This document shows positions 3,532 through 63,446 of a stretch of 64,000 bases of DNA, one piece after another (the stretch's first letter is position 1; each line of letters starts with the position of its first letter). Both the position numbers and the translations under genes were made by a program. The notes beneath the pieces are model-generated. The model made no database searches, was not told the origin of the DNA, and saw only the letters and a list, made by a program, of their open reading frames with translations. Source of the DNA: Cloeon dipterum (lineage: Eukaryota > Arthropoda > Insecta > Ephemeroptera > Baetidae); NCBI RefSeq assembly GCF_949628265.1, contig NC_088786.1:16988001-17052000 (forward strand), read 5' to 3'.

Positions 3532-6500
3532 ATGAACAATCTTTACTCGAAAATGTCGGCAAAACCCGTGGTGAAGCGTTGTCATCAGGATCCGCTGTCC
3601 GTTTCGCAGACCAACGCCTGGGTCAATGGTGAGTGGGCAGAAGAAGGTCATCACGGCCCTGTTGTTGGTTCTTGGGCTCGCGACTTTAGTGAAATCTACA
3701 CCTGCACCGCTCGCCTCGGGCTGTTTGCGCCCCGAAATTCCAGAAATATAGGACGGACGTCTATCATTTATTAATTTGACTTGAGAACAACAACATTCCA
3801 ATGTTTTTTGATCATTCAATTCATTAACGTTTGGATTTTTTGCTGTCTCAAAATTTTAATAGGGTCAAGAAGCAATTTTTGCCCTTCGGCAATTAATTTG
3901 AAGCGGCAGGTCGTTAGAGAACAACCTAAATAAAATATTATTATCTTAATCATGATGCCATCAAATAATAGCATTTTTTATGTTTCTGATTTTCATTTTT
4001 GCACGAACAACAGATTTTAAGAATATGGACACTCAAAACCGTTTAAATCTTCCTTTGAATTTTCCTTAAAAAACCTAAAATTCGTTCTAAATTTTATTTT
4101 TTTTGGCACCTGGGGCATCTTTAAATTTAATAATCATTGGAAAAATTGGTTAACTATTTTAAACCACTTTTTGTTAGTCGTTTCAAGAACCGAATAGAAA
4201 ATTTACTAAGATAAAAAAACTTACGACCCTCTCACTTAATTATTTTTCGTTGTTCATTTCCATGATTAAATCAATCATTTTATTAGAGACGAGAAAGCAT
4301 TGTATTGCTGTTTAATAGAATAATATTGATTTAGGGTTTATTTGACGAAAAATTTTGACTATCTGTTCACGCTCACTCAGTTATATTTTTGTTTAAAAAA
4401 ATTAATTTGTAACAATTTTATTTTTCAGCCGAGAGCATCGAGAGCAGCTCCGGAGGAGTTGGCGGTGGCATTTCTCAGCGCGAGAGCAACATTCTGGTCA
4501 CCCAGCCGGCCAGTTTGCCCAACTCGCCCCTGGCGTCACCCAACTCGCTGACCACAACCTTCAACCTTTCGCCCCCGGTCTCACCCCCACCCCCAACGCA
4601 CTCGACGGACGATCCTAACTGGCAAGCATGCAAGCCGTCGGTGCGTGAACGCAACGCAGCCATGTTCAACAATGAGCTGATGGCCGATGTGCACTTCCTA
4701 GTCGGATCTCCAGGTTTGATCTTAGTTTATGATACTCATAATAAGCTAAAATTTGTGGAGGTCAATTAGAAACTCGCTGAAATTCAACAAATTAGTGGTT
4801 AGTTAAAATTCAAATCAAGATAATTTGATAAATTAACAAAAACTATTTCAGTGTAAAAATAAATTTTTAAGCGACAATAGAGCTGCTAACTTTGAACTTT
4901 TGACATTTGTTTCTAATTTTTGGTTTGTCTTGACTCAAGATAAGTAATTCTAGAAAAAATATGGTTTATTGTAATTATTAAGACAGTAATTCCTTGCTAT
5001 AATATCATATTAAAGAGATTGTCATAAAATACTGAAATTGTATTTTAAAAAACCTTATTTGAATTCAATGATCTATTTAGTAATGAAAAATCCAGTCTTT
5101 TTTAGAGATTGTAGATTACGAAAAATGAAAAATATCTTAAAACTGTCTAGCACGGTTACAAAATTCATTGATTTTTAATTTGGTAAAATGTACGATGCTT
5201 TTAAAATATTTTTTGCGGTTATATTTTATTTTGAAAGTCCTTTCCATATTGGATACTGTGTGCGATTTTTTTAAAAACATTTTATAAATTTGGAACGAGA
5301 ATTGTTGCTTCAGTATTGTAACCTTTCAAAGATATTTCTGAAATAAATATTCCTCTCACCAACCTGTTCTTAAAGAACGACATTATTGATTTTTTTTTAA
5401 ACTGGAGGGGTATAGCCGAAAACGGCTAGCGAAAAAACGTCCCTTTACCACTGAACCTTCACAGTATATTTAGCTCTGAAAATAAAAAAAATGTGTCTGA
5501 TAATATAATTGTTTCCCTCAGTGCAAAGTATTCCTGCGCACAAGTATGTGCTGGCAACGGGCAGCTCGGTGTTTTACGCCATGTTCTTCGGCGGTCTGGC
5601 CGAAGAGTCTGCCGAGATTGAGGTGCCGGACGTGGAGCCGCAAGCATTCCTCACTATGCTGCGCTACCTGTACTGCGACGAGATCCAGCTGGAGGCGGAC
5701 ACCGTGCTGGCCACGCTGTACGTAGCCAAGAAGTACATGGTGCCGCACCTGGCCAAGGCCTGCGTCAGCTACCTCGAAACCAGTCTGACGGCAAAAAACG
5801 CGTGTCTGCTGCTCAGCCAGTCTCGCTTGTTTGAAGAGCCTGAGCTGATGCAGCGGTGTTGGGAGGTCATTGATGCCCAGGTGAGAAATTTCAATTTTTA
5901 AAATGTTCCAAAATTCTCAAAATTATTCGAAAATTGCAAAGAAATTCACCCTACATATCGATAAGATTTCAAAGCATTGAATAATAACAAACTGTTTATT
6001 TTAATTAGATTTTTTATTCATTTAATGTCCTCAAATTATTTGCCTTATGTTAAATGTAACAAAAATTCAGATTAAAATAGGTCTGGTATAGATTAGCAAA
6101 AGGGACTGTTAAATTTTTTTCTGTCGCTGCTGTGATGCTCAGATCATCAAAAATGAGCACAAAGCATGATTTTTTAGGCATTTCAACGAATTTTAAAATC
6201 AATATTTTCAAATTGTGTCTGTAAAACTGCAAATCGACCATTTAAACAAGATTTTTCCTGAAAATATTTTGTAATGTCCAATTTTACAATTTCCCGCGCT
6301 TTGCAACATGTTCCACACCTTTTTTATTTTCTGGGGATTGACGCTCCCTTTTCAATTTCCTTTGAGTTGCTTCCTATTCTGGTGGTCTCTGTGAAGAGAT
6401 AATTCAGTAGACTGTTTTTCAATTGCAAAGATATAGAGGAACTTAAAAATAAATCCAAGGTTTTTTGTGGCAGTCTTTTCCAAATTAATTAAATGATTAC

Positions 6501-11100: not shown

Positions 11101-11317
11101 TCTGGTTGCTTCATCAATCGAATTAAAAATACGAAAAGACTATATTTTAAACGGCCAGTTTAGACAGGTCTGACAAAAACTGATATGCTGGTAAATGTGG
11201 AACACTGCAAAATTGGGAGAGCGACAGAAGTAATCTCGCATAGGGTTTGCTCCAATTTCTATAGAAACAACAATCACAGACTGGGTGAAATGAAAAATAA
11301 ATAAATCTGGCTGGCTT
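8175..11317. other. 3' UTRs and spacer between convergent BTB gene and Asx
   Basis: No coding exon is recognisable here. The left part is the 3' UTR of the BTB gene, with candidate polyA signals AATAAA at 8529 and 9002-9007. The rest is the Asx 3' UTR on the minus strand plus spacer. A minus-strand AATAAA lies near 9050, so the two 3' ends may come close together, but the Asx cleavage site cannot be fixed. A degenerate family-Y repeat lies at about 10545-10680. Confidence 0.6.
10545..10680 (+). repeat. Dispersed repeat (family Y), degenerate copy
   Basis: The string attgcaaagttcgtgatttg, then tccaaaatttccaacaga, tgaagaaatgtgacggctttt and a t-rich stretch ending atagttttcat, aligns with copies at 53936-54080 and 57236-57380. 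Identity is only moderate and judged by eye. Confidence 0.45.
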
Positions 11318-14300
11318 CTACCTAATGTGGCAGGTGACACAGAGTCTGGTGTTGGGCGTGATGCAGTCGTCGTGGCAGTAGGCGCCGCACTTCTGGCACA
11401 TGATCATTGCCTTCAAGTTGCACACACACGACTGTGGGGCCTGACCACCAGCGCCACCGGGGGGGCCTTTGCGGCCAAGGAGCAGCTTTTCCTGTCCCGA
11501 GGGGTCCGTGCTGGCCGGCCGGCCACTGGCCGCCTGGGGGAGGGCCACGGGGGGCACCGGGGGCGCGCTGGAGGCTCTGGTGGGGGCGGGCAGGGGCGGC
11601 CGCTGCACCAGAATGTACTGCGTTCCTGCAGTGGCGGCGCCAGAGTTTTTGTCCACCACCTGCAGTGGGGGTAGGGCCACGGGCCGCGGGGCGCCGTTGG
11701 CCGAGTTTCGACGGGCGGCTACGGCGGCCGCCTGGTTAGGTGGCAGCACGGCCATCGTCACTGGCACCCCCTGCGGCGAGATGACCTGCCGAAGCACGAT
11801 CGAGGTCATCCGGCTCGAGTTCTGCGGCGGCATCGGCAGCTTTGCGGGTTTGGCCGGCGGCCGCGGCCGCTGCACCGCTTGGTTGGCCCGCGACGGAATG
11901 GTCGTCTGCTTGTTGGCCAGCGATGGCGGCACCTTCAACTGGCCCTGCAGCTGCTCCCGGTTTGGACTGTTCTGGATCACCGCCTGGCAGATCTGGTACG
12001 AACGCTCCAGGTTGACGGCGCCAGGCGGCGTCGACTTGCTGCTCGACCGAGAACCTCGTCCGCCCTGCGTCGAAAGAAGGGATGACGATTTAATGAAGGC
12101 TCGAACACCAACAATCCGTAGAAGACAGGTAGAGAGAGAGAAAAGTGCCCAAAAAATCGACCATACCCATGACCGGTTTCAACAAGAAACATGATTGTTT
12201 TTTGCCACAATATTTTGGAAATTAAAAAAGTGAAGAGAGTGACTTTTTTAATGAAGATCAAATTAAAAAAATATGTTTTATTAATAAACTCCCACCTTAG
12301 AGGAGTGTGTGTGCTGCAGCTTATCATAGTATAATAATTAATTTAAAAATACTTTTTTGCTATGAAAATAGAAATTCATTGAGTTAATTCACTGTGGCAT
12401 AGATATTAATGACTATATCTCACTCCAGACGCCAACAACTCACTACAAAATCCCAGAACCTTTTTCTTTATGCATCTCATCGATTGTTGCAATGCAAAAT
12501 TTAAGTACTCGTGCACATATTTGGAAACAAATCAATGGAGTTTACTTCCAAGTGGCAATCTTCAAGCAAATGAGTTATTTTTTTTGTAAAAGCTGAAGCT
12601 CCTTTTTTTAATTAATGTAACGGTTTCATTTAAAAAGTTTATTTTTGGCATCAGATTGAGCCACAATATATTGACAATTATATGAACCTTGCAGACAATA
12701 ATTACCCACTGACCAATTTGTCTAGTTAAATAGTGTTAACCTATTTAAAATCATCACGATTGAATAAAAACTGGCTTCACACTACGATTTAGAAAATTTC
12801 ATGAGATAAATCCCTTTCGAGCGTCAAAATTCGCAATCTCAGTCAAATCAAAAATTTCTCCTGGTAATACATTATGTCTTAATTCGTAGGATACTACACG
12901 ATTTCAATAATTTTGCCAAACTTGACCACTTAGAAGAAACAAAAGAGAAATCATGCAAATGACGCTACCATTTAACTGAAGGTAGCCCAGTTGTTTTGTC
13001 CATCCACCCGTTACCTCTGAGACCCACTTGGGAAAAGGAGAGCATCAAACCAATTCACACAAGTCGAGCTACCGATTTGATTCTTTGACAATACCTGGGA
13101 CTTTGCTTTGACATGGGCTTTTACACTGTGACCCACCAAGGCGGCAGCAGCTGCTGCGGCTGCGGCGGCAGAGGCGGCGCCGTTATTGTTGTTGTTGATC
13201 GGCCCTGGGGAGGAAGACTTGCCGGGCGCCATGTTAGACGCGAGGTTGGCCTGCAGGGGTGGCGGCCGGACTGCGGCGGCTGCCACGCAGTTGACCAGTT
13301 GGGGCTGGACGGCCGAGATGACCTGCGCTCGAAGGTTGGGACCCAGCAAGGGCTGCATCACTGGCAAGGAGTGCTGCTGCGGCAGCGGCAGGGGGATTGG
13401 CGTCATGATTGGCGCGGCGGCCACCTGCGGCTGCGGCAGTTGCATCTGCGTGTTGGAGAAAATGGACTGCGATGGGGCCAGGGATGTTGGCAGCTGGTGT
13501 AGCTGCATAGGCTCAGAACTGTAAGGTGGTGGAGCGGGAACAGACGACACCATTGGCCCGGAGGTAGTGACAGCCTGGCTGCCGTAGTTCACTGGAGAAT
13601 TTTCGATTTAAATTTTAAAATTCAGAACAGTGATTTGAGGACGAACTGTCAAGAGTCGGGAGTACAAAAGAGGCATGAAAATTGAAAAAATGACCAAAAA
13701 TCAGTTACAAGTAAATTTTTCATCAACATTTACAATAATTTAATTTTGTAGATTTTTCTTTGACCCGAGTGAAATTTTTCCTCTTAACTAATGACATTTC
13801 ATCTAAGAATGAAAAATATTACTTTACCAAAGGTGCAGTGAAAGCCTAAAATTTCTCTAATAGTAAGGTAAATAATTAACATGGAAAAAATATTTTGCTC
13901 ACTATCAAGCTCAAGTTTGGAATGGTCTTGCATGACGTCCATCTTCTGTGGTTGGCTGTGCGGCACAAACATGTTCATTTGAGACTGCACATTTGTTGGC
14001 AGCATGTTTTGCTGCAGGTCCGAGTTGCTCGTGCTGAAGATCGGCCACTCGACAGGCGAAATCTCGACATTGGCTTCGTCAGGCATGATTATCGGCGACT
14101 GGTGCATTTCCATGTCCTTCACAATTTGGCCCACGACGAGATCCATCTCTCCCGCCAGAGACTCGACATTGTCAACCCGGTCGGCAGGGTTTCCAACCTG
14201 TAAACAATTGTGAAAAATGGAAATTGATAATGGGGCTTGAATGCTTACATTTTCTTCAGAAGGATTGCCCAGCAAATTGGTTGAGCTCTGGTCCATGGAC

Positions 14301-17300
14301 CAAAATTGAGCCTGCAGCAAGAGGTCTGAGTGAACATCGCTGGTGGACAAACTCTTGACAACACCTTCCTCTTCAGCCTTTAGAACGTCTTCTATCACTT
14401 GATTGTGGTCAGCGTCATTATCTGTAATTAAGTCTCAAAGTTATTTCAACTGACAGATTATTGAATAATGATATTAAAAAAAGATTTTTCATGACGTTTT
14501 TATTTTTAATATAAAATTTCACCTAACGAGAATTTTGTTAAAGACTGAAAAATTGATTCTAAATTCTAAATAAGTTTCGCAATACATGTTAAATTATGAG
14601 AAAAATATTAAGTAACATTACTTGAAATTTAATTTTCTAACCTTGGCAAAATGAAATTTCTGTTAACTACTGCAAAAACATCTGTTAGAGACTGATTATT
14701 TGTGGATATAAAAAATATAAAAAATACAAAAAGAAATTAACAATGGAGTATTAAATGTAAATTTTTCACCCTTTTACCCTACCATTTGAGATCTGTCGAG
14801 CCATTTCGAACAAATTGGAAGAGTTGACAGTACCCTCCGGGCGGTTCTGCTCCAAAGGCACCACAATTGAACTGATTGGATTTTCGATCACAGCCTCTTC
14901 TACCACTTCCTCCACCACACGAGCCTGCAGCTCTGGAATCGGTTCCTCGGCGCACAAGATTTCTTGCTTGGCCATTTTACATTCATCACTGAGTTCAAAG
15001 TCAACAGAGGAGGGCTTTTCGACGCTAGCGGCGCGTTCGGGTTGCTCAGAAACGGAACCCTCTTCTGGCGGAAGCTGCTGCAGTTCGAGAACAGCCTCTT
15101 CCTTAGGTTCCTGTTCTTCCATCGCTGGAGGAATTACAGGAATCTCCGGCCGAGCAGGAGAGCTTGATTCTTGAACCAATTCTTGAGCTGTTTGGAATAG
15201 ATCGGCACGTGTAGCAGCAGAATTTGTTTAAAAATTTAAATGTAGGGAGAAGATCTATAAAATAACTAGCGAGAGTTCACGAATAAATTACACACTTTAA
15301 ATTATCTGATTGATCGACTGCATTCCGATCTACAAATTGAGAATTTCAATTATTCCAACGAATAATTCTAAACATAGAAGATATAATTATTTCAAATATT
15401 CAATCTCACCATTTTGAAAATCAGCCTCCAAGGAGTCGTCCAACTTGGGCTTCTTGGCCACGCTCTCGACCTCTTCTGCAAAGCGTTTTTGTGGCAAGGA
15501 TGGCTCTTCTGGTGGAGGCGTGGAGGCGGGCACTGGCGGAGATTCAGCTAAGGATTGTGCAATCACCACTGGCGAAATACAAGGGGAACTGCTCTTCGGT
15601 ACTGGCGTTACAGAGACAGGGGCAGGAGGGAAGCTCGCTTTGTTTGCTGACGAAGTGCTTGGAACAGGGCAAAGAGGGCTGTCTTCCAAGGGTTCTCCCG
15701 TCCTCTCACCCCAGATGGCTTCAAAATGCTTGCTCTGTAAGAAAACGTCACATTAAGAAGAAATATAAATGCTGATCATTATTGGCACTCCAGAATCCAT
15801 GAAATTTATCTAACACGTATTATATGCGATTCCAATTCCAATGCATGTGCAACAAGCAGGGTTTGGGAAGAGGGCGGAAATTTTACAAATTGTTTCAATG
15901 ACCTTGTTTTACTACGATTTAATTTGAGACATTTAAAATTTGTCCTACATTTTGAGGAAAAATTATAGAAAATCTATCGTCTGGCATACAAATTTTTTGT
16001 TATTTATATTTAAATTTTTTGTTCAAAGACCTAAAATTCAGAAAGCCCCTTGGTGTTTGAAGTCGCCAATAGATGGCGCCAGCGGTTCCTTTCTATTTTA
16101 AGGCACTTTCGCTGCTATTTAAGACTCAATCCTGCTGCTGTTCATTCTGCTCTAAAATGTTTTATTTTGATGTGCTGGAAACAAAAATCAGTCCAGCCAT
16201 TCACCTTAGAAACGTCAGGAAATGTTTTTATTTTTAAATAACGTAAACTTTAATAATTCTAGAAATATTTCTGCGTATTTTATGAAACTTTGCCTGTATG
16301 GAAAACCAAGGAAATTGATTATAATACCTTCCATGGGTCGAGAATTTTCCGTCTCTTCTCCGATTCAAACTTGAACTTCTGCTGATTTTCTGAGCTGAAT
16401 TTCCCTTCTGCCAGTCGACGGCGCCACTCGAGACAAGCCTTAGCGAAGAACTCATTACTGAGTCCAGTAAAGTCCTTCTTCAGAGCACCTACGGAGGTCG
16501 GCCGGTCGACCTCCGGCAACAGCTGAAGCAGCTTCTGCTGATACAGCAGAGGCAGCTGAGCCAGTGTCTCCTGAGTCAATAATTTGGACAAATTCAGCAC
16601 GGCAAATATCGAATCAGGTGTTTCCAGGTCGATCAAACCCTCCTTGGTCTGCTCCAGTTGGGCGGCAGCCGACAGCTTTCGCGCCGACTTCTTGCGGTGT
16701 TTCAGATTGAAGCCGGGAATCGAGGCCAAAACCTCCTGCATGGTTGAAGCCTTTGGCGTCGAGGAAGGTGACGCCGGCGACGGACATCCCAATGAGGAGG
16801 TCTTCACCACCAGTCGCGGGATGGGCGCAATCGGGTTGCCTGACGCAATGGTTGTGTTTTTCCGCCGCCTCTTAGCTTGCTGACGCAAAGCATGTTTTAT
16901 CACCTGAAAAATGGCGTAAAAATATAGCGAAATATTAATCAACATATTATTTCTTGAACAGGAATAATCAAAATAATTTCATTGTTTTCCTGAAAAATAG
17001 ACTAAAAATTTTCTTAACAGTATTTTTTCTCTTTCTAACAATATTTTCCTCCCTTCAAATTTCTTTAGACATAACATTTAAAACTTTGACCATTTAAATA
17101 TAGGTAATTTATAATTATTTACAAAAATTTCAGAATATTTTATTATTGTCATATCTTTTTGATACAGACAAAAATCAAATCTGAATAGTGGGAAAATTGA
17201 TTAAGCCATCCTCGAGAAAAATATTTAAAGTAATTTGTAAATTAAATACCATAGCCTAATGTATCTGAAATAATTTTTTATGACACTGTATCACCAGAAG

Positions 17301-36689: not shown

Positions 36690-37863
36690 ATGACAAAAAC
36701 AACTGCAAAACGAGTATTCCTTTGTGTCACCATCTACTTATTAGCACATTTCGAATTCACCTTGCCCTTTTCCGAAATTTCACAAACTATAACCCGCTTC
36801 CCCAATAATCCATCAATTCGCCGAAGGCATCGTGCCCAAAAACAAAGGAGGAGAGTGCAGCTACCATCTAACTTTTGCAGCGACATTAAGTTCGAGGTGC
36901 GCTTGCTTGAGTTTTTAATCAAAATTTCAAAAAAATGTTAACATAAAGAATGTGTTTCGATGCTGCGAGTTGCCGACAATATTGCCCGCAAACGATTTTA
37001 CAATTTGTAGGCAGGAAAATGAAGCTTGGTTCCAGCCACCTAGAAAACGGCCAAGACAACAAGCTGTCAAGTGTAATGATTTTTAAATAAAATAAAATAA
37101 ACCATTAAAATAATTGATCCATCGCAGTCTCGCCACGGGACAACCCTTTGCTTAAGATTGTAATGATTTATGATATTTTTTATACTGAAAAAACATGTGA
37201 ATTAATTAATAACAAATAGTGCATGTCTAACTGCGTCTTCCAGCGAAATGGATTTGTATTTGTCTCATAGAGAAATTGAATTACAGCTTACATTTTTGTA
37301 TTTAGATATTGAGCAGTGGAGAACTGAATATGACTAGCATTTTGGAGACTTTTGTAAGAAACCAAACTAGTGAGGATTGGAAAAATGTAATTGCAGCAGG
37401 CGTGGAAAAGTGCTATGCTCAAATGAACAGTAAGCTTTTAACTGAGTGTTTTGGTATAGACTGATTCAAATAAAAACTTTAGATGCGACAAAGTATTTAA
37501 AAATAGATCCTTGCAGGATCGAAAACCATATGTTTCTGACCTGCATTAGACAGTATTTGAGTGTCGTACGTTTAAAATTGTTTTTTTTATTAATAGCCTC
37601 TAACATTTAAATATTTAGAATTGCAGCAAGGATGCGTCGGCTGGAGCCACAATCTGTAACTTGTACTTTATTTGTTTTCAATTTCTTTGCTAAGATTCGC
37701 ACACACATTCATAGATCCAACCTGCGAATTCAACATGAAAATTCTAGAAACTTGTGATCCATTTATCAGGGACCCTCGCATCGATCTTTATCCTCCGATG
37801 CGCCAGCGGAAAATGCGAACCTCTACTTCACCTGTGTATTATTATTATTACAATTCTTACTAA
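36690..37863 (+). CDS. OBP-like secreted protein A (divergent paralog)
   Basis: Eight exons, all phases agreeing: 36690-36896, 37015-37072, 37128-37159, 37220-37255, 37306-37429, 37483-37565, 37619-37655 and 37715-37863; 241 aa. The hydrophobic N-terminus looks like a signal peptide, followed by a basic stretch (RRRHRAQKQRRRVQ). The 36-nt exon encodes CMSNCVFQRNGF, as in its three neighbours. The next exon has EDWKNVIAAGVEKCYAQM, then a C..C-x-R helix (FLTCIRQYL) and the C-terminal ETCDPFI. These match genes B-D downstream. Unlike them, it has no recognisable C-x-x-P-x-LF segment before the CxxxC exon; exons 2-3 there are Arg/Pro-rich and less certain. It ends in a Tyr-rich tail. The function proposed for the family is binding of small hydrophobic ligands in extracellular fluid. 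Confidence 0.6.
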
Positions 37864-38133
37864 TTAATTTTGTAAATAAAATAAAATTGACCTGTACAAA
37901 ATAAAAATATAACTTTTCACTATATAATCTACAGACTTGCAAATTTATAACTTTTAAGTAAAATATTTATCCTTAAAATAAAAAAGCAGATTTGGCTGAA
38001 AAAAAGGCATCAGTCGCGATTTATCAGCAAGCGAAAATTCGAAATTGATGTCGAGGAGAATCAGTTCGGCCATGCAGGAAACCTGTGTGAGTTGGAGGCA
38101 GGAAGCCACGAGCAGCGGCAGAAAGCGTCCAAC

Positions 38134-39354
38134 ATGGCAGGCAAAATAACGTTTCTCGCTCTGCTTACCATTTTCACAGTAGTGAGTATTTATTTAAATG
38201 TATTGTTCCAAAATAAATTGTAGCACCTTTTATACTTATTTTGTAAAAGAAATCAATAAATAGCCACTTTTAAATTGTTCAGGCGTTTGGTGCTAATGAC
38301 GATAAATTCGCGAACAGCACTGAACCATGCAGCTCCAATGTGTACGATGTGAGTTATATAATTAATTGATTATCTCAATTAATTAAAACAAAATGATACA
38401 TTTTAAAGGGGCTCGAAATGTGCTGCGGCATGCCGAAACTTTTCTCGAATGACGTTTTTAAGACTTGCTTGACATCGCAAGTGTCCAAGATGCAGCAGCA
38501 CGCCGCGCGCTCTGCGAAAAGAAAGAAAAATAGACGCACAAGATCTTCAGGCAACAAAAGTCAAACTGGTAGAAGTGGAGCAATAATCATGCGACGCACA
38601 GCGGGACCTTTGGGGGGCCCAATGGTGAGTGCTATAAAATTTCTGACGTGATATGAGTGCAATAGAGTAATTTTGCAGTGCATTCTCCAATGCGTGTTTG
38701 AAAAAGAGGGCTTGGTAAAGAATTTAGCTTTATATTTGTTAAAGCTATTCACTAATTAATAAATTTAGCTAAATAAGGACAAAAGTATTAATTTGGAAGC
38801 GATGGTGAAGTTGTTCAGCGCAGCTTCAGATGAAAGCTGGGTTGATTTGGTGAAAAACGTTACTGGAAACTGCTACAGTGAACTCCAAAGTATCTGATCT
38901 ATTTGAGATTTTATTTCCTTGTCATTTTTTGAATTTCCAGGATCTAATTACTCCGCCCTACCCAACGTCACCGGTGGAGAACCTTCTTGCAAAGCCAACT
39001 GCGCCATGATACTATCTTGCATTCGCCGCCAGCTTACTTTGGTATAATTATTTTTCATAATGGCTCAATAGGGACGAGTAAAATCTGTTTAATTTAAACA
39101 GCGTTGCCCTGAGAACATGCTGAACATAAAAGGTCATCTCGTAAATTAATTTATCAAAATTTTTAAAATAAATTTCTCCATAAGTAGATAAGAAATGTCC
39201 TGCAAAAATCGAGGCATTGAAGAAGTGTGATCCGTTTGCTATTCCAACTCCCGCCGAGCTGATAGACGGAAAGGTGGTGGCCTCAATCAATGAGGCCGTG
39301 GAGAAGAAGAAATCTTCCAAGAACAACAAAAGGCAAAAAGGAAATAAATATTAA
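38134..39354 (+). CDS. OBP-like secreted protein B, 12 cysteines
   Basis: Seven exons in phase: 38134-38181, 38283-38348, 38409-38624, 38679-38714, 38769-38889, 38941-39041 and 39193-39354; 249 aa. Signal peptide MAGKITFLALLTIFTVAFG. Cysteine blocks in order: EPCSSN, MCCGMPKLFSNDVFKTC, CILQCVFEKEGL (a 36-nt exon), VTGNCYSEL, PSCKANCAMILSCIRRQ and KCPAKIEALKKCDPFAI. A CC-x-x-P-x-LF start, a CxxxC-VFE helix and 12 cysteines resemble Plus-C/Obp59a-like insect odorant-binding proteins, but a database search is needed to name the subfamily. Between the third and CxxxC cysteines is a Lys/Arg/Ser-rich insert (SAKRKKNRRTRSSGNKS), and the C-terminus is also Lys-rich; both are unusual for OBPs. PolyA signal at 39388. 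Confidence 0.85.
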
Positions 39355-39600
39355 TGAAAACTGTACTTTATTGGGCTAATTTCATGCAATAAATTCACTG
39401 ATTTGACCTGAAAAATTATGATTTTAATTTTAAAAGAACAATTTTCATGCGCATGTTGAAGGCAGCGCAATATATTTTTCGTGGAAATTGAAACTGGCCT
39501 TATTCGAAACAGGATATTCCTCCATATTTCTGTCCTTGAGCTGGAAACAAACGTCACACGCAGGAAATTTCCACGCAGAACAGTATTGGTCAGCGACGCG

Positions 39601-40846
39601 ATGCGGTGCCTCTTGATGCTGGTGATTTTTGCTTTATGCTCTCTGGTAGAATATTTTTACAAAATGTAATTCAACTTATAAAATGCAAAAACTTTTCAAA
39701 ACGACAGGCATTTGCTAAGAAGGGCGATAAAGCCAAAATGAAAGTGGACAGGTACGCAGGCTCAACTAGGCCATGCAACCCGAGGGTGTTTGCGGTGAGC
39801 ACGCGTTTTTTTTGTATTATTGCTGAAGCGTCCACATATTTCTGCTTCTAGACTCTAGACAGTGCTTGTTCAATGCCAAAATTCATGCCGGTGGCTACGA
39901 TTGAAGAGTGTTTTGGCAAAAATGCTTCTAAGGAGGCTATCAAGAAAGCAGCTTTCTCGGCCAATCGGAAAAATAAAGGCAAGGATAATCCTGGAAACGA
40001 GAACCCTATCAACAGTTGAGGAAATTTACAGCTGGATTAAAAAATGATGCTAACCGATTTTATTTTTGTTTCAAAGGTATCAAACCAGGTCGTCGTGAAT
40101 TCGGTCCAGAAGGAGGCCCCATGGTGAGTTGTATCCATCGAACCGGAAGCTATCTATCACGATGGCAGCCAATAAAATCCAATTTCTAGAATTTTAATTT
40201 TCTAGTGCTTCGTCAAATGCGTTTTTGAAAAAGAGAAATTGGTGAGTTGCAGTTTTTTTTAAATATGTAAAAAAATAAACTCGGATTGTAGTGTGACGCA
40301 AAGGGCGTTGTGGACATAAATGCCGTGAAGCAGAAGTTCTCAGCAAACTCGAATGACACCTGGAAAAGTACTGTCGAGAAGTCCGTGGATACTTGCTGGG
40401 CTGATTTTCAAAGTGAGGCACTGAATTATATTGTTAAGACTTCATTTTCGAGAAAAATTTTAAGATGTGAATTTCTCAAACTCCTCAACTGTACCAAATG
40501 AAGCGAAGAACTGTAAAGGTGACGCAGCCATGCTTACTGCTTGCGTGCGCAGAGCCCTTTTCATGGTTAGAATTATTGAAATATTGTTAATTTGGATTTT
40601 CATCACAATAATTTTTTTATAGGATTGCAAGAACATCATAGACAGTAAGTAAATATTTTTTCTGATCGATGAACTCACATTTCTTCTTGCGTAGAAAATA
40701 AATACGAGAAGAAGCGAAGCAAGGTTGAGAAATGCGATCCTTTCTCCATTCCCCCTCCAAGGTACAATGCTACCGAAGCGCGAAAAAGCAAGCGCAATAT
40801 GGGAAAGGGAAATAAAATCGCCAAAGACCCCAAGACCCAGGGTTGA
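39601..40846 (+). CDS. OBP-like secreted protein C
   Basis: Nine exons in phase: 39601-39645, 39708-39794, 39852-40014, 40077-40123, 40206-40241, 40292-40412, 40504-40565, 40623-40644 and 40695-40846; 244 aa. Signal peptide MRCLLMLVIFALCSLAFA. Blocks parallel gene B: RPCNPRVF, SACSMPKFMPVATIEEC, a basic insert (SANRKNKGKDNPGNEN), PEGGPM at the splice before CFVKCVFEKEKL (36-nt exon), DTCWADF, KNCKGDAAMLTACVRRALF, MDCKNI and EKCDPFSIPPP. Compared with B it has single rather than paired first-helix cysteines, plus extra introns splitting the insert (40014/40077) and the C-terminal part (40565/40623, 40644/40695). The C-terminus is again Lys-rich. PolyA signal at 40881-40886. Tandem duplication with B is clear from the shared exon pattern. 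Confidence 0.85.
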
Positions 40847-41768
40847 TTGTGTATTTTTGGAATTGATGGTGTAGGTTTTGAATAAATTGGTTGAATTTAA
40901 TTGCATTTTAATTGGTGCAAGCTACAAAAAACTATTGTGTTTTACTTGAACTCTTTTGCAACACAAAAAAAAAATTGGCGTCGATAAAAACACACTACAT
41001 AATAGATTAATAAAAAATATATTAGGACGTATCAATTGCTGTGAATTTATGATTTTCACAATTATTATATAGATATTGTTTTATTGAGAGAAAATAATCA
41101 GTTTTTGGTGGGTTCCAAGACAATTTTAAAGGCCATAAAACCCTTAGCATAAAATTTTTCCAGAAAAGGATATTTTGTCGTTTTAATTAACTTAATTAAT
41201 GATTTCTGGCGTATATATTGGCTTAAGAATAATCTTTGACAGTGTATTTACCATTACCGTGTTCAGGATACATGAGAAAAGGCAAAATTCCTACCCGAAT
41301 TAGCAAAATGGAACAGACAAAATATTCTTCACCAAATCTTATTGAGTTCCCTGGAAGTATTTTGAAATATCTCTTATTTTGGCACGCAATTAAAATCCAT
41401 AAATTTTCTGACCATTTCAATTCCGTCCAGTACACAACATTTTTATTTCAGTTTATTCCGTTGATCCAGAATGTTAAATCAAAATGGAATGAATAAATTT
41501 CACAAATTAATTTGTTTTTTATTTAATCTGAGATAATACAGAAAATAATAAATTTTAGGTGAATAAAACTCAGCAAACAGGGGTTGCTTCATGTCAAAAC
41601 TTCGCAGGAGAATGAAATTTATGCTCTTAATTTCAAATGTGAGTTTCGTCCCCAATTCGCATTTGATACAGAGATGTGCACGCTGTTGCCATCAAACACG
41701 CGACTGACGTTGCTTCCGCTCAACCGCTGAGTCACAAACTCGTTGGAAAAGCAGTTGGCAACAGCAGA
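40847..41768. other. Spacer between OBP-like genes C and D
   Basis: No gene is supported. The frame 41236-41496 is open on plus, and 41435-41223 on minus, but neither has a signal peptide, cysteine pattern or splice partner. AT-rich. It should contain the promoter of gene D. Confidence 0.5.
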
Positions 41769-42928
41769 ATGCTGAAACTAATTGCGTTTTACTTTCTCTT
41801 CGTGGGTATTGTTCAGGTTTAGAAAATTTACTAAATGATATTTTGAGGGTTTAAATTTGTGATAATTATAATTTACAGGCGCACAGGCATCGTGGCGGAG
41901 GGGGCAGAGGGAGATATCGAAACGATCCACTCGTGTGCAATAAACATTACCTCATGGTTCCCCTATCCAGATCACTTGAATAAAACTATTTAAAACAACT
42001 CATTTATTAACAGAATGCAGCACTTTGCGTCACTGTGCCAGAATTATTCAGCGCAGATTTGTTTGACCAGTGCAATAACGAGCTTGTTGCCAGTGCTTCA
42101 ACCGCGACGCAAAGGCTTTCTCGGCGCCGAGGCCGAAGTGCGCACAGGGGCGGGAGGAATGGCAGATTTGGAAAATGGTCCCGAAACTGGAATGGCAGAA
42201 GCCGATGCCATGACCGCTATGTATATGTTGATTTTTAGCGTAACTATGTATTGACAGTTATTTTACTTGAACAGTGTGCTGGTCAATGTGTCATGAACAA
42301 GACAAATAACGTGAGTTTTAAAATTAAATTTTTGACAGACAGTTTTTTAAAACTATAATGAACCCAGCTCCTAAGCAACGGCTCGGTCGATATAAATGCG
42401 CTTTTGACTAACTTCGAAAACAAAACAACTGACGCCTGGAAACAAATTGTTTCGCAAGCCATCAATGATTGCTGGAAAAGTGAGCCAGTTTTGTGTGCAT
42501 TAGAAAAATTACTCACAGCAAACATTAAAAGACATCAGCTCCAAATTGACTACACTAGACGCCCAACCTGGCCCAAAAGGCGTTAGCAAATGCAGTAAAG
42601 GATCTATGCTCACGATCATTTGCATTCAGAGATATCTATTTTTGGCGAGACAAAATTTATAATTGAATGTTATTTGCTAATAAAATCATGATATCCGCAG
42701 AACACACCTGAGGACCAAAAAGTCAACTTGGTTCCTAGCGGTCAGGACAATTGCACAGTCCGGGATAATCAGCTGTCCAATTGTGATCCATTATACCTGC
42801 CTACACAGAGCGGTGGACGCGGTGGAGGGCGAGGTTGGAACACGCAGCAGGGGATAAATAATGGTGGCAACTTTAATGAATTTGCTGATGAAGGAAACCC
42901 GGCAGATGTAGACATTATTGACATGTAA
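41769..42928 (+). CDS. OBP-like secreted protein D with Gly/Arg-rich segments
   Basis: Seven exons: 41769-41816, 41879-41932, 42014-42220, 42275-42310, 42368-42479, 42532-42644 and 42701-42928; 265 aa. Signal peptide MLKLIAFYFLFVGIVQA. Blocks match the neighbours: ALCVTVPELFSADLFDQC, CAGQCVMNKTNN (36-nt exon), NGSVDINALLTNFENKTTDA, AINDCWK, KCSKGSMLTIICIQRYLF and NCDPLYLP. The mature N-terminus (HRHRGGGGRGRYR), the insert (RRRGRSAHRGGRNGR) and the C-terminal tail (SGGRGGGRGW) are Gly/Arg-rich, RGG-like, which I do not know from OBPs. The exon 6 donor position that is GT in B and C is GC here (42645-42646); with GT-AG only, the frame would end nine codons later. The tail after that is acidic. 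Confidence 0.8.
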
Positions 42929-43419
42929 CAGAGCTGTGTGTATTTTCTGTTTGCGTTTGAATTTTTATCGTGTGTAAAAAATGTGGAGTTTATGGACGTG
43001 CAATTTTTATGCCTAAAAAAATGTTATGCATGGGAATGAATTCACAATTTCCCAGGTTAATTGACGTTTAAATTTTTGAGAACAGCAGCTCCAAAGTTAG
43101 CATGCTGATCAATCAGTGAGCACTCTGTCTCCCTATTATAAAATCACGGTTTATTTCACGATTAGAGAATAATTGTTCCTCGAAATTCGCACGCCGTCGG
43201 ATAGATTGCGACGAGAGGAAATCGGAAAAGGAGCAAAAAATATGGAAAACTCGTTAAATGGATCATTAAATTTGGTAAAACCTTATTTTTTCTTGGTCCT
43301 CTGATTTGATTCTATATGTAGCAATTTTATCAACTGCTAATAAATAAAAGGTCTATTTTTACTGCTTTTAGAAAAAAAAATTTATTTCTTGCTCACATTA
43401 ATTTTAATACAATTGAAAT
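42929..43419. other. Spacer between OBP-like gene D and the S28 peptidase gene
   Basis: Convergent spacer. It holds the 3' UTR of gene D, a family-X repeat (43198-43272) and the minus-strand AATAAA (43386-43381) of the peptidase gene. No coding sequence seen. Confidence 0.6.
43198..43272 (-). repeat. Dispersed repeat (family X)
   Basis: ggatagattgcgacgagagg, aaatcgg, agcaaaaaatatgg and gttaaatgg align with the copy at 57938-58012 in the same orientation, and in reverse complement with those at 46690, 55975 and 19640. Confidence 0.65.
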
Positions 43420-46151
43420 TTATTTCTTGGCTGCCGCTAGCCAGTCTCCAATAATTTGGATTACGCGATTTCTAGCATTAATAAGGTCGGCAGAGTCGGT
43501 CGAGCTGGGAGATCCAATGTCTCTGCAGTGGGAATGTCCTGAAAATTTCCAGATTAGTTGCATTGATCAAAGTTCAAGATAAAACAATTTTTATACCGGC
43601 AATCAAGATAACGGGCGATTCAGGGCTCAGATCAGTTTCACGTCCCAGGGCGTGCCAGGGATCAAGACTGCCGTGGGTGTAGAGCACCCTGGTCACGTCA
43701 GGATTGAGTCCTCCGTATTCAAGGTTGGTGCGATCAACGCCAGCCTGAGAAACATCCTGCGTGAACCTGAAACAGGAATTACAAATTTTATCTTTTTCCT
43801 TTATAATGCAGTTTGAAAATGACAATAAAGTTATAGCAAAAATTGGATCTTACTGGGGTCCAAAGACTTCGGTATTGAACAGGATGGAGAAAGACAAGGG
43901 AACGTTTTGTCCAAAAGGCTGATCTGGTGACGAAAGGCTTTGGTAGTAGCCAAATTCGGTAGCAGTCTGGTAGACCCACTGGCGGGCTAATTGATTGTTT
44001 TAAAGAGTGATATTTTGGTTCGGTAACTAATACTTACTAATGTCATCGGAGAACGCAATATTGGTGCGGTAGTACTCAAACATGTTGGCAGCTACAATGT
44101 CTACCTGGAATCCTCCAAAGTAGTCCCTGAATAACTGGGCAACTGTTTCCAATGGAGTGCTCTGGCCTGCAATCAACGTCTGGCAAATCTGGGCCAAATT
44201 ATCGCCGCGGGCGTACTGCACTTCTCCAGCAAACACGTACGACACGTATGAGCGCAGGTTCATCACGTCATTCTCGTTGGCAAGGTCAATAGGCGTGTAC
44301 AGACTATAAAGTTTTTTAAAATTATTAAACGAAATGTCACAGGTTGGAGGAAAAATTGGTATGAGATGCTAAGTAAACTCTAAGAAATTCACCCCGAAAA
44401 TCAGTCTTTACTAGTTGCGTCATACAAATATTTCGACAAAATATTCCTTTTTATGGGATATACGGGATAATTTAGAAAAACTATGATACCTCAGTATCTC
44501 ATCTCCCCGTGGTGCAATTAAGAAAATAAAGTTTGCTTTATGGATTCCTCTCGCCAAGCTCGAACATACTATATTATCACCAAGTTTAATGTCGTAGGAT
44601 AAGATAAAATATTTCTCGTTTTCGAATTGAAATTTGGGAATTCGGGAGTAATTTTCGAATTTAGAAAACATATGCTTAAAGGATTCCTATGACATGTGTG
44701 CAAATTCCAGAGTTTTGTTCTCTTTTTGTTTCTGAGTAATTGCCTTCAAAACTCGATTTTTTCGCCCTGTCATGTCAACTCCAAATTTTGAGTTTAAACG
44801 ATTAGAATTACGAAAACTGAATGCCTTTAGACCCCTCTCAACCTGCCCTAACCAGCTGAAGAGCTTAGAAGCCAATTATTCTAAAGAGGCCGCGATAATT
44901 TAAGTACTTGAAAAGCTGAGTGATCTGTGCAACGTCTCCGTTAGCGATGAGCACGTCGAGCTCGTCAGTAGACTGCTGGATGACGGCGGGACAGGCTGGG
45001 TCTGTTGCTAAAAGGGCCTCGTTGACCACCTCCATGTACTCAGGGAAGTCGAGCTGCGCCAGAATTGGGGCGCTGGATGCGTAGGCTGCGAAGAAGATGT
45101 GCGGGTAGCGAGCGCGAGCCCAAGCTGCCATGTTGGCGGAGTAAGAGCCGCCGACAACGATCCAGGGGCCGTCGAGACCAAGGCTTGCCTTCATGTCCAG
45201 GGCGAAGGTGGCGGCGTCCTCAAGGGCCTGATCCACGCTCAGGTACTTCAGATTGTCACTGCTCGTGTCTCTGAATAACAAAAATAAAGCTTGTTTTTGT
45301 GAAAAGTATTTCAGAAAAAATAAAAACGCTACTACCAAGCCGTTAAATTTCTGCATGCGATTTCCCAGAGCAAGTTACTGTTGGAAAATTTTGAAAAAAT
45401 TAAGGGATTTCGAAAAATTATGAAAGTTGCTCATCATTCGTTTCGTCTTGCTGCGAGATTATAAAAATGTTAAAAGTTAATTGAAATGAGACCATTTTTC
45501 AAGATATGGCGGTATGAGATTTCTTCACATTTACATTTTAAAATTACAGAGGTGAGCATCTAGCACACCATAAATATTCTTTTGGCATTATCAATATGTT
45601 ATATTTTATTAAACAACATCGAATAGGGGCGAAAAAATCATAATTTTCGGATTAAAAAGGTATAAGCTCCACTCGTAAGAAGTAATAATGCTTACGGGAC
45701 AGGTCTGCTCTGGCCATAATATCTGTGTTCGAGGTCGATGGTGAAGCCATTGTGTGCGGCTGCCAGCTCACCCACAAAGGTGAATTCTACCTCTCCAGCG
45801 CTAGCTTCCCATTCACCGGCCAAGTACAAGAAAATCGGTGAGCCAGGAACGTAGGTCGCGGTTGAGATGAAGTAACGCTGTTTTAGTTGCGTAACGAGTA
45901 TTAATTTTTTTATTCAATATAAATTTAAATTTCCTTACCTGTTGCCAAGTATCAGTATTCAATGCGTCGAAGTGGTCCAGCTTTTGGGTATACCACATGG
46001 TGTTGTGGGCCTTGGCGGCTCCGAATTCTGTCGGTGGTGGAGGAACACCTCGGCGAATGATCTGGTATGGGTTCACGACCTTTGTCGTGGGAAGCGAGGC
46101 GGCCAGGGCTGCGGCCAGCACGCCGAGAAGGACAACTGCTACGCGGGCCAT
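43420..46151 (-). CDS. Secreted serine peptidase, family S28 (PRSS16/K12H4.7-like)
   Basis: Seven exons in phase: 46151-45939, 45877-45696, 45270-44908, 44303-44038, 43986-43854, 43766-43597 and 43538-43420; 481 aa. Signal peptide MARVAVVLLGVLAAALA. S28 blocks: QKLDHFD, FLYLAGEWEAS, IDLEHRYYGQSRPVP, LSVDQALEDAATF, then the nucleophile motif GGSYSANMAAWARARYP (Ser174), YVFAGEVQY, RQWVYQTATEFGYYQS and THGSLDPWHALG (Asp421), and finally GHSHCRDI (His446). The triad is therefore complete and in the expected order. Family members are lysosomal or secreted Pro-Xaa carboxypeptidase-like or dipeptidyl-peptidase-like enzymes; the exact specificity cannot be read here. The motif usually reads GGSYSG; here Ala replaces the last Gly. 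PolyA signal on minus at 43386-43381. Confidence 0.95.
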
Positions 46152-47782
46152 TTTTCGGTAGAGTGTGAGTTGGGAACAGTGCGATCCGAACTTTATGTTG
46201 ATCGATTATCTCTACTTAAGCTATGATCAATCAGTAGCAATGTCAATTTCAAGGACTTATAGCATTTAGTAAAAAACATTAGCTTTGCAATAATCACACT
46301 TACCAATTGGCAAACTTAGCCACTGCTGGTTTTTTTGATAAAGGAATGTGATTAATGGATTATATATTGCGTGATTAAGTTGTGGACAGAGTGTTTAGGA
46401 TTATCGCCAAAAAATAAACTTATCAGAATCAATGGTACGCGTGATAAATAATATAAGTGTTGCTGGAACATGCATTATCATCCTGTAAGCTGTGAAAAAG
46501 ACAGTAAACCAAGTGTTCCAAGTCCTCCAATTATTTTTCTACTCCATTTTCGAATGTCGTGGTTTTTGTTTAAGTCTCAGACGTGGAATTAAGCTTAACA
46601 ATTGTAAAATAATCAAATCTGGAATGAGTAACAATACAATTTCAGATTTAGCAAAATTTCTCGAAAAGTTAAACGATGCGTGTCAATGCGTTTTTCGCTT
46701 TATATTGATTCCACTAGTCGCGATCTATCCAACGGTGTGTGAGAATTGTGAGGAAAATGACCACTCTGGCAAAATAACACAGCACAATTCCTTTTTTAAT
46801 GTTGCAACATGATAATGAAAAATCAGGGTTCTTTGCTTCAGATTCATCTTTTTATTTACATACAGCAGCACAGGCATTCAAACCAACAGCCAAGAGAGAC
46901 ATAAATTTATATCTGGTTTTGTTTTCGAGAGGAAGTTGCTCGCGTGAGTGGTGGCTTAAGTAACATTAATCAGGATTGTAGGCCATATCAGGTATAAAAA
47001 AACTCAGGCTGACTGGCGCAACGGTCGATTTCCACTTACTACATTGCATAGAAGAACCACCCACGTTTTAGAATTATTGCCTCGTCTTGAACAGTGCACG
47101 TATAGAATCGTATAAACTATATTAGAACCAAAATAATCTAAATGTATCTTTCTATTTTTTTTTCGCAGAGCTCTCGTGAAAAGTTTAGTCCAAAAGGCAC
47201 CACATCAAATTATAAAGTTGCTCTCTCATCGATTCTAGTTCCCACTTATTACTTACAAATTAATACAGAAAAGCATATATTTCATCTCTTTTGATTTTGC
47301 TGGCGTGTGTTTATCAAGTCGAACCAAAAGTAGGAAATTGCTCTTTTCGCTTAAAAGGAGACAAACATTTCAATATAACAAGGTTTTTCTCTTTTTTTCA
47401 CCGCCCTCTCACGTCTTTCTATTGCTTTCCATATTGATTGAATATAATAACACAGTCTTCGGAGTAATGTCTCGATTTTTTCTAACGCCATTTTTTATGT
47501 ACGTGTGTGTGTGTGTTTGTCTCTTCCTTGTGAGAACAACTCATCAGTTTCGCCACTTTTGTCCGCGGGACGATATCACAGATCACATGAAATATTCCAA
47601 GCACACTTCCTTGTAACAACTCGCGCACGTCTTCTCAAAGTTAATTTGTAAGTCTCTTCCCCTGGGTAGGGCCGGGAAATTTGTTGCAAGTCACTCAGCG
47701 GTCAGCAATATTGATTCCTGCGAACAATATTGAATTGCATTCGTTGCTTTGATCGATAGTGGGGTAAAATAGTTACCGAGAG
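46152..47782. other. Upstream region of the S28 peptidase gene and 3' flank of the GPI-type gene
   Basis: No gene is supported. The frame 46492-46812 overlaps a family-X repeat and has no family features. A minus-strand AATAAA near 46850 may end the transcript of the next gene, which would make its 3' UTR about 0.9 kb. Confidence 0.5.
46690..46780 (+). repeat. Dispersed repeat (family X)
   Basis: tttttcgctttatattgatt, agtcgcgatctatccaacgg, tgtgagaattgtgagg and ccactctggc align with the copies at 55975-56110 and 19640-19785. Confidence 0.65.
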
Positions 47783-61617: not shown

Positions 61618-62625
61618 TCCCCATACTGGGATCATTGAGTTTAGTTTTCGCTTTCGGGGTTTAATCTGGAGCAGACGGAGTGCGAATGCGCACCTCGGAT
61701 TAGTTTGATAAGGCGTACGTTGTGCGCGTTAATAAATAAACAACCTTGCCGTCGTGTTCTCTTCTCCGCTCGTGTTGAGGGTGATGTCGTCGCGAGAAGA
61801 ACAAAACAGCAGAAAACAAACAAAAGGGGTTATCGCTGCGACATGCTTCTATTTTTGCCTCCGCAGTCGCTATTGTGCTTGCACAAGCAATTACCGTAAT
61901 TATCAAAACACAAATTCCAACTCCCTGCTGGATTATTAAATTTGACACAAACTTTGTAAAAATCGTAAAAATGAATTTTGGCAAAGAGAAATTGATCAAA
62001 AATTTAGCAGCGGGAGTGGAGAAGGGTTGCAACAAATGCGTAAAAAGTTTAATTAATGCTACATCAAGTCCAAGCTGATATTAAACCACATTCCGGCTGC
62101 TATTTTGAAAAACATTCAACGCAAATTCCATCAACGAGCGCACGCAACAGCAAAATGCGGCAGAATATGTATGTTGTGCAGATTAAATTCTGCTGCCCAC
62201 CGAGCACTAGCAATTTAAAACCAGCAAATTAATTCTTTATGTGCGCGCACAGCACCGCGTTGAATTCGCAGATTGAATTTTAGTCAAAAGTCGTGTGTGT
62301 TCAAAACAAGTGGGATATTCACACATTTTGGTTTCTCCTATTTGTTGCTAGTCTAAAAAGCAACTATGGCAACACGCGCTAGAGAGCTGGTTCAGTTGAC
62401 TCACCGGATGTCCGAGGACCAGTCCGTTGCACTGCACAGTTTTGCAGAACTAGCTAGGCCGTGTCGAAAACACGTCCATAAACTGATTTAAAATATTGGC
62501 TTCGTTCTCACTAGTTTCATCGTCCCTTAATTATTTTATAGTTGCAGTGTGTTATGTGTAAAATCTGAATGCACAGAAATGTCAGAAATGGATAATAAAA
62601 TTTATCTGGGCCAATATGATGTTAG

Positions 62626-63446
62626 CTATAAGATGTTTAAAATTAAACGAAAAGAAATGCCAAGTCATGAAATTTAGAGCCGGTGGTCATGGTCGTTATA
62701 GCAAAGTAGATTTGAACTGGGAAAAACAGAATAAAATTACCTTCTGCTCTTCAATTAATTATCTAGGAGTCACTTTCCAAACTGCAGGTGTATGTTTTAG
62801 TAAACATATTGATAAGAGAGTTAAAGCCTCAATATTTGCTACAGGCAAAATTAAAAATTTGTCAAAAAGTTCTATTGTTACAGCCAAAAAATTATTTGAT
62901 TTAGCTATTTCTCCTGTTGCCTCATATGGTATTGAAGCTGTCTGGAAATACTTGACTTTAAAAGACTTAAATAATCTTGAATGTGCTAAGTCTAGATTTT
63001 TTAAGAAAGCCTTATGTGTCGATAAGAGAATGAAATCAAGATTTGTATATGATCTAGTTGAGACTGATTATTTTGTAAATGACTTAAAGACAAAATTCTC
63101 CCTGCCGGACACACCTGTTTATATTAAATTCTTGGATAATATGATGCATAAAAAACAAAATATTCACCCTAATTTTTACAGTACCCCAGCTATGACAAAC
63201 AAGAACTGGTGGCTACCCTATTGTAAAGATCGAAGTGTTTTTACGAGATACTCTTTCCATGGTTATCATTTTCTGTTATGTAAAGACAAACGTTTCCATC
63301 TTGATGTTTCTGCTAATTGTGTTTGCCAATTCTGCGATGAAAGCGGTATAGACATGTATCATTTCCTCAATTGTAAAAATAATACAACTACCTTATTTCA
63401 AGCTGCTAAATATAAGAAATTGCAGTTAAATAATATCGTTATATAA
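62626..63446 (+). pseudogene. Reverse transcriptase C-terminal fragment of the LINE
   Basis: An open frame of about 273 codons continues from flanking DNA into the element. LKLNEKKCQVMKF corresponds to the end of the RT palm/thumb region (L-N-x-x-K-[CT]), and INYLGVTFQ to the following F/Y-LGV motif. The C-terminal CQFCDESGIDMYHFLNC is the cysteine/histidine motif found after the RT in many LINE ORF2 proteins. The catalytic core (including YxDD) is missing because of 5' truncation, so it cannot be active. There is no internal stop, which suggests a fairly recent insertion. The clade cannot be assigned without a search. Confidence 0.8.

Follow-up and report, generated by a model that had tools for sequence, protein, structure and literature searches.

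What do four tandem genes of the mayfly Cloeon dipterum encode, and what purpose, if any, do the basic inserts in their products serve? The genes (A, B, C and D) all lie on the + strand of a 64-kb stretch of contig C1 (C1:16988001-17052000; this whole stretch is the window, and positions given without a contig or locus refer to it) and span 36690..42928 from the ATG of A to the stop of D. Odorant-binding proteins (OBPs) are secreted carriers of small ligands, and an earlier reading of the DNA letters, here called the sequence-only reading, had proposed that the array derives from them. As judged from profile matches, A-D are Plus-C (AgamOBP47-like) OBPs, and the array represents a local variation on a well-known family and no new kind of system. 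We put the chances at about even that these genes belong to an old tandem group of Plus-C OBPs that would act as secreted ligand carriers with a cationic loop as an electrostatic handle.

Working by hand from the DNA letters alone, we built four models that each run from ATG to stop (Table 1). They follow a common plan: a signal-like exon, an exon 2 with one cysteine, and an exon 3 in which a cysteine hairpin (a pair of neighboring positions that can be cysteine, followed by P and by the C that closes the hairpin) precedes a variable insert. Downstream come a 36-nt exon encoding C-x3-C, an exon of 112-124 nt with a tryptophan and cysteine C4, an exon of 83-113 nt with cysteines C5 and C6, and a C-terminal part that bears a CDP motif and a tail. 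The N-termini of all four models are hydrophobic, from which we infer that the products are secreted. For comparison we used eight further OBP-like genes of the same genome (190.1 Mb in 10 contigs), found by similarity searches with the A-D proteins and families. Five of these were modelled, three as a tandem array (C5a, C5b and C5c, - strand, C5:14503776-14515974, loci L022-L023) that combines basic inserts with basic tails, and two on contig C1 (C1_32 and C1_21p). The models of the relatives begin after exon 1, and that of C1_21p is partial.

In Pfam, the classic PBP/GOBP family PF01395 was matched above its curated cut-off of 22 bits by A (23.3 bits) and B (24.4 bits) and slightly below it by C (21.1 bits), in each case from C-x3-C as far as C4 or further. 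D matched PF22651 (OBP47_like, AgamOBP47-like) at 27.2 bits, above the cut-off of 27, and B matched the same family below it (22.8 bits). At E <= 0.05, seven of eight scanned members matched PF01395 and five matched PF22651; the C-x3-C to C4 segment of C5c alone reached 33.3 bits against PF22651 (cut-off 27). Searched against PDB on its own, B gave weak matches to 4ij7 (E 0.0042), a RING protein (0.017), 3pm2 (0.034) and two shorter OBPs (0.035 and 0.051). Single-gene scores so close to the cut-offs, and OBP structures found by B at E 0.0042 and weaker, would also suit another cysteine-rich secreted family with a C-x3-C exon by chance. A family profile made from eight of the nine modelled members (C5c was omitted as being close to C5a and C5b) argues so strongly against this explanation that we regard it as highly improbable: the best match is 3pm2 at E 5.9e-11, collinear across hairpin and core, followed by a D7 salivary protein (0.0016) and THP12 (0.0027). 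These are the three PDB sequences at E <= 0.01, and 4ij7 is absent from them. The proposed derivation from OBPs is thus borne out by PF01395 (A, B) and PF22651 (D) above cut-off and by the profile match to 3pm2, and the latter bears out the Plus-C relationship for which the sequence-only reading had suggested a check.

Plus-C OBPs are defined by extra cysteines and by C-P following C6, and we take 3pm2 (AGAP007287, Anopheles gambiae) to be AgamOBP47, a member of this class. The profile aligns with 3pm2 in a core block (chain 54-170) and a hairpin block (chain 13-40, weak alone at 6.8 bits), with the insert between them. The array genes share with this protein the hairpin CC pair (positions -4 and -3 relative to P; its first cysteine is missing from C, as is C8, and its second from D, as is C7), the C-x3-C, C4 and further cysteines downstream; B even reproduces exactly the spacing C5-x9-C6-x8-C-P, as counted in the 3pm2 alignment. 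In eight aligned members the order C2-x3-C3, C4, C5, C6 is kept by invariant columns (C112, C116, C158, C181 and C191 in D numbering). At the place after C6, B has C-P, A has C-S, C has C-K and D has T-P. In contrast to A-D, where the hairpin cysteine and C-x3-C are separated by 32-52 residues and the loop is basic, 3pm2 has 21 residues there (counted from alignment numbering). Classic OBPs resemble the array genes from C-x3-C to C4 or beyond but lack the extra cysteines, the N-terminal hairpin, the long insert, the C-terminal extension and the isoelectric point (pI) of 9.3-9.6 calculated for the whole A-D models.

The most conspicuous shared feature of the array is the 36-nt exon, which lies between AG and GT in each gene, exactly where the sequence-only reading had placed it. 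The corresponding stop-free pattern AG-TGY-N9-TGY-N21-GT occurs four times on the + strand of the array, whereas 1000 copies generated by a first-order Markov model of the array averaged 0.001 occurrences and never had more than 1, which sets the chance at about 0.001 per array. Outside the array the + strand of the window contains no match; on the - strand there is one, at 13090-13125. We then scanned the eight further genes for exons 27 to 63 nt long that encode C-x3-C. Since these genes were gathered by their similarity to A-D proteins and families, they are not representative of all OBPs. The 36-nt exon is used in six of them (C5a, C5b, C5c, C1_32 in L042, C1_21p in L043 and a weakly OBP-like gene in L020 described below), although the exon in L042 could also be read as 57 nt long, ending at a later donor. 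An acceptor immediately before the first cysteine of C-x3-C is present in all eight. Readings of 36 nt came from L020, L022, L023 (two), L025, L042 and L043, and the scan gave no C-x3-C exon of 27 to 63 nt in L018, L019, L021 or L024. The reading in L025 (~5630-5811, - strand) is probably no exon, since the frame stays open from C-x3-C through C4. Similarly, the gene at C3:3625501-3625665 (L020 7495-7665, - strand) encodes C-x3-C to C4 within one exon; its acceptor is kept and there is no intron 36 nt on. The exon had been called strictly conserved, which holds for A-D; it is neither general nor restricted to the array, given that six of the eight outside genes have it and the other two are unbroken at this place. 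Each of the nine modelled genes with a long insert uses it.

We measured the insert from the closing hairpin cysteine to C-x3-C in these nine genes (A-D, C5a-c, C1_32 and C1_21p; the L020, L025 and C3:3625501 genes were left out). It is longer than that of 3pm2 in 9/9 and basic in 7/9, at two of four sites; a long insert is thus common to five genes at three sites outside the array. The inserts of A-D contain 22-27% K+R, and the Lys/Arg-rich inserts of B, C and D bear Gly as well. Their sequences can scarcely be aligned. Basic inserts in B, C and D and a basic N-terminus in A had been described before, and all of these are present, but the restriction of the insert to B-D is not, because A carries one too (Table 1). 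The broader proposal of an OBP subfamily with gained charged loops is likewise supported, with the amendments that the subfamily is wider than the array and that the loop is not always basic. In A and C the loop is unlikely to be spliced out through skipping of exon 3b because these exons of 32 and 47 nt are not multiples of three, and the entire loop of B and D is encoded within the hairpin exon. Runs of K/R in the models, such as AKRKKNRRTR (B) and SRRRGR (D), raise the question as to whether furin-like or trypsin-like proteases cut the loop to leave a two-chain carrier or to free basic peptides. We see no cleavage motif conserved across A-D in the alignments, however, and we consider such cleavage improbable.

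Table 1. Gene models of the array, 36-nt C-x3-C exons, and inserts of the nine modelled genes (positions of inserts are those of the exons that encode hairpin and insert; aa, amino acids; net, net charge).
Feature	Position	Strand	Description
Gene A	36690..37863	+	8 exons: 36690-36896, 36949-37072, 37128-37159, 37220-37255, 37306-37429, 37483-37565, 37619-37655, 37715-37863; 263 aa predicted
Gene B	38134..39354	+	8 exons: 38134-38181, 38283-38348, 38409-38624, 38679-38714, 38769-38889, 38941-39041, 39102-39132, 39188-39354; 261 aa predicted
Gene C	39601..40846	+	9 exons: 39601-39645, 39708-39794, 39852-40014, 40077-40123, 40206-40241, 40292-40412, 40465-40565, 40623-40644, 40695-40846; 257 aa predicted
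Gene D	41769..42928	+	7 exons: 41769-41816, 41879-41956, 42014-42220, 42275-42310, 42368-42479, 42532-42644, 42701-42928; 273 aa predicted
36-nt exon of A	37220..37255	+	encodes CMSNCVFQRNGF; between AG and GT
36-nt exon of B	38679..38714	+	encodes CILQCVFEKEGL; between AG and GT
36-nt exon of C	40206..40241	+	encodes CFVKCVFEKEKL; between AG and GT
36-nt exon of D	42275..42310	+	encodes CAGQCVMNKTNN; between AG and GT
Insert of A	36949..37159	+	exons 3 and 3b with phase-1 intron; hairpin and 32 aa, net +5
Insert of B	38409..38624	+	exon 3; hairpin (MCCGMP...C) and 52 aa, net +13
Insert of C	39852..40123	+	exons 3 and 3b with phase-1 intron; hairpin and 50 aa, net +6
Insert of D	42014..42220	+	exon 3; hairpin and 49 aa, Arg/Gly-rich, net +11
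Insert of C5a			37 aa, net +5
Insert of C5b			41 aa, net +5
Insert of C5c			41 aa, net +6
Insert of C1_32			53 aa, net -3
Insert of C1_21p			44 aa, net -5

Individual cysteines were compared among the eight genes whose models include the C-terminus (C1_21p, in which the hairpin spacing differs by one residue, was left out of the count). Both CC cysteines are kept in A and B, and one each in C and D. A, B and C have the second CC cysteine together with C7, which lies nine places after C6, whereas D, C5a, C5b, C5c and C1_32 have neither. The first CC cysteine and C8, which precedes CDP, are missing together from C alone and present together in the other seven. Hairpin and C-terminal cysteines thus vary together as disulfide partners would. 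D is more similar to C5a, C5b and C1_32, with which it shares 29, 30 and 25% identity as well as the fused last exon, than to A, B and C (23, 23 and 16%); therefore two old lineages seem to be present in the array. In a tree of the nine core sequences, none of the six inner branches is starred, five are open and the ends are very long, so that the separation of A, B and C at 90/99 is a hint only.

Selection on the insert was assessed in the C5 trio, using our own Nei-Gojobori script to calculate ratios of non-synonymous to synonymous substitution (dN/dS). The core gave 0.27-0.37, and because it is constrained, these genes look functional. The insert gave 0.72, 0.80 and 2.10, the last value resulting from 7 non-synonymous changes against a single synonymous one. 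Values elsewhere were 0.13-0.40 for the hairpin, 0.39-0.78 for exon 2, 0.22-0.92 for the tail and 0.39-0.66 overall. In this trio the insert changes faster than the core and is one of the loose parts of the protein. The basic insert is nevertheless retained at the same place in all three genes while the core is constrained, an observation that we count in favor of an electrostatic handle.

The same numbers can be read differently. On this view the family assignment stands and the loop would serve no particular function: being disordered, on the surface and flanked by elements that disulfides fix in place, it would tolerate insertions and low-complexity drift, with a charge that is incidental. 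This explanation is a serious contender, though not one that we favor. It accounts for insert ratios above those of the core, with the caveat that the highest rests on one synonymous change, and for two relatives whose inserts are of similar length but net negative; it does not readily account for a net charge of +5 or more in 7/9 modelled genes (2/4 sites) despite the poor alignment of the A-D inserts. Several points weigh against our main reading as a whole. The insert ratios fit plain relaxed constraint. The inserts of C1_32 and C1_21p match the others in length yet are net negative, and therefore positive charge is not required by the subfamily. From CDP onwards D is net acidic (-5). Finally, the cysteine pairing comes from few related genes and perhaps from two events. 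The loop may be kept basic for a function, but drift is nearly as likely.

Regarding gene structure, intron phases are equal among A-D at all shared introns, as had been noted from the letters. The claim of a shared exon order does not extend as far: a phase-1 intron interrupts the insert of A and C but is missing from B and D, exons 1 and 2 are fused in A, and the last two exons are fused in D. All introns are GT-AG save one GC-AG in D. The donor in question follows exon 6 (42644/42645, TTTTTG/gcgaga), where the paralogues have GT; the downstream exon joins in frame and its letters resemble those of the C5 genes.

The array is flanked on the - strand by frames matching the acetyl-CoA transporter family PF13000 and the serine carboxypeptidase S28 family PF05577. 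The carboxypeptidase gene (43400-46200, - strand) adjoins the array, and its match comes from one exon tested. Further away, an Additional-sex-combs-like gene (11300-17000, - strand) matches PF13922 (PHD_3) and PF13919 (ASXH), and an open frame of 294 aa (62562-63446, + strand) without a Pfam match at E 0.001 resembles the final part of a reverse transcriptase from a retroelement.

Whole-genome family searches were weak (one match for PF01395, five for PF22651) because the genes match exon by exon. A match at C4:7496106 (E 0.25) was dropped, as L018/L019 contain no C-x3-C exon and a stop lies among the matching letters. Other weak matches, with E from 0.18 to 1.8, lie at C2:15734325, C2:17771916, C5:32084083 and C1:8514824. 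A weakly OBP-like gene on contig C3 (3.62 Mb; L020 ~4900-5179, - strand; PF01395 E 0.0029, below cut-off) encodes a Met/His-rich stretch, MAMNGEHNQQEVQSCMAMGMDHSGHM, that is perhaps metal-binding.

Large OBP families have precedent in this species. The parts of the C. dipterum study that we consulted report 191 OBP genes, the largest set then known, of which 25 are gill-specific, and clusters of OBP-expressing gill cells that are positive for the neuronal marker HRP (PMC7250882). Genes A-D may be among these 191. The very large family is the point of likeness with our array; the consulted text mentions neither Plus-C members nor basic loops (PMC7250882). Another mayfly is reported to have just 10 OBPs, all in Classic or Atypical clades (PMC13205551). 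Our literature search, the scope of which did not include subscription papers and supplements, found no description of mayfly or Plus-C OBPs with basic loops in the texts seen.

How might an electrostatic handle work? The secreted product would form a helical pocket braced by cysteines, as is typical of the OBP family, and this pocket would carry a hydrophobic or amphipathic ligand. The loop of 32-52 residues between the N-terminal cysteine hairpin and the C2-x3-C3 helix is probably disordered and could hold the carrier on anionic surroundings such as mucus or matrix glycans, cuticle or membrane. The site of action may be a water-bathed sense organ or another secreting tissue, and the non-olfactory role put forward in the sequence-only reading is conceivable. 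A bolder version, which we consider rather unlikely, is that in a Plus-C branch, perhaps special to mayflies, a tolerated loop became a cationic anchor whose charge was kept without its sequence, so that carriers are held on anionic surfaces, for example of the gill, and not washed out. If the loop does tether the carrier, it would provide a concrete molecular answer to the question as to how soluble odorant carriers function in water. If it does not, the array is still a clear case of paired cysteine loss and loop drift.

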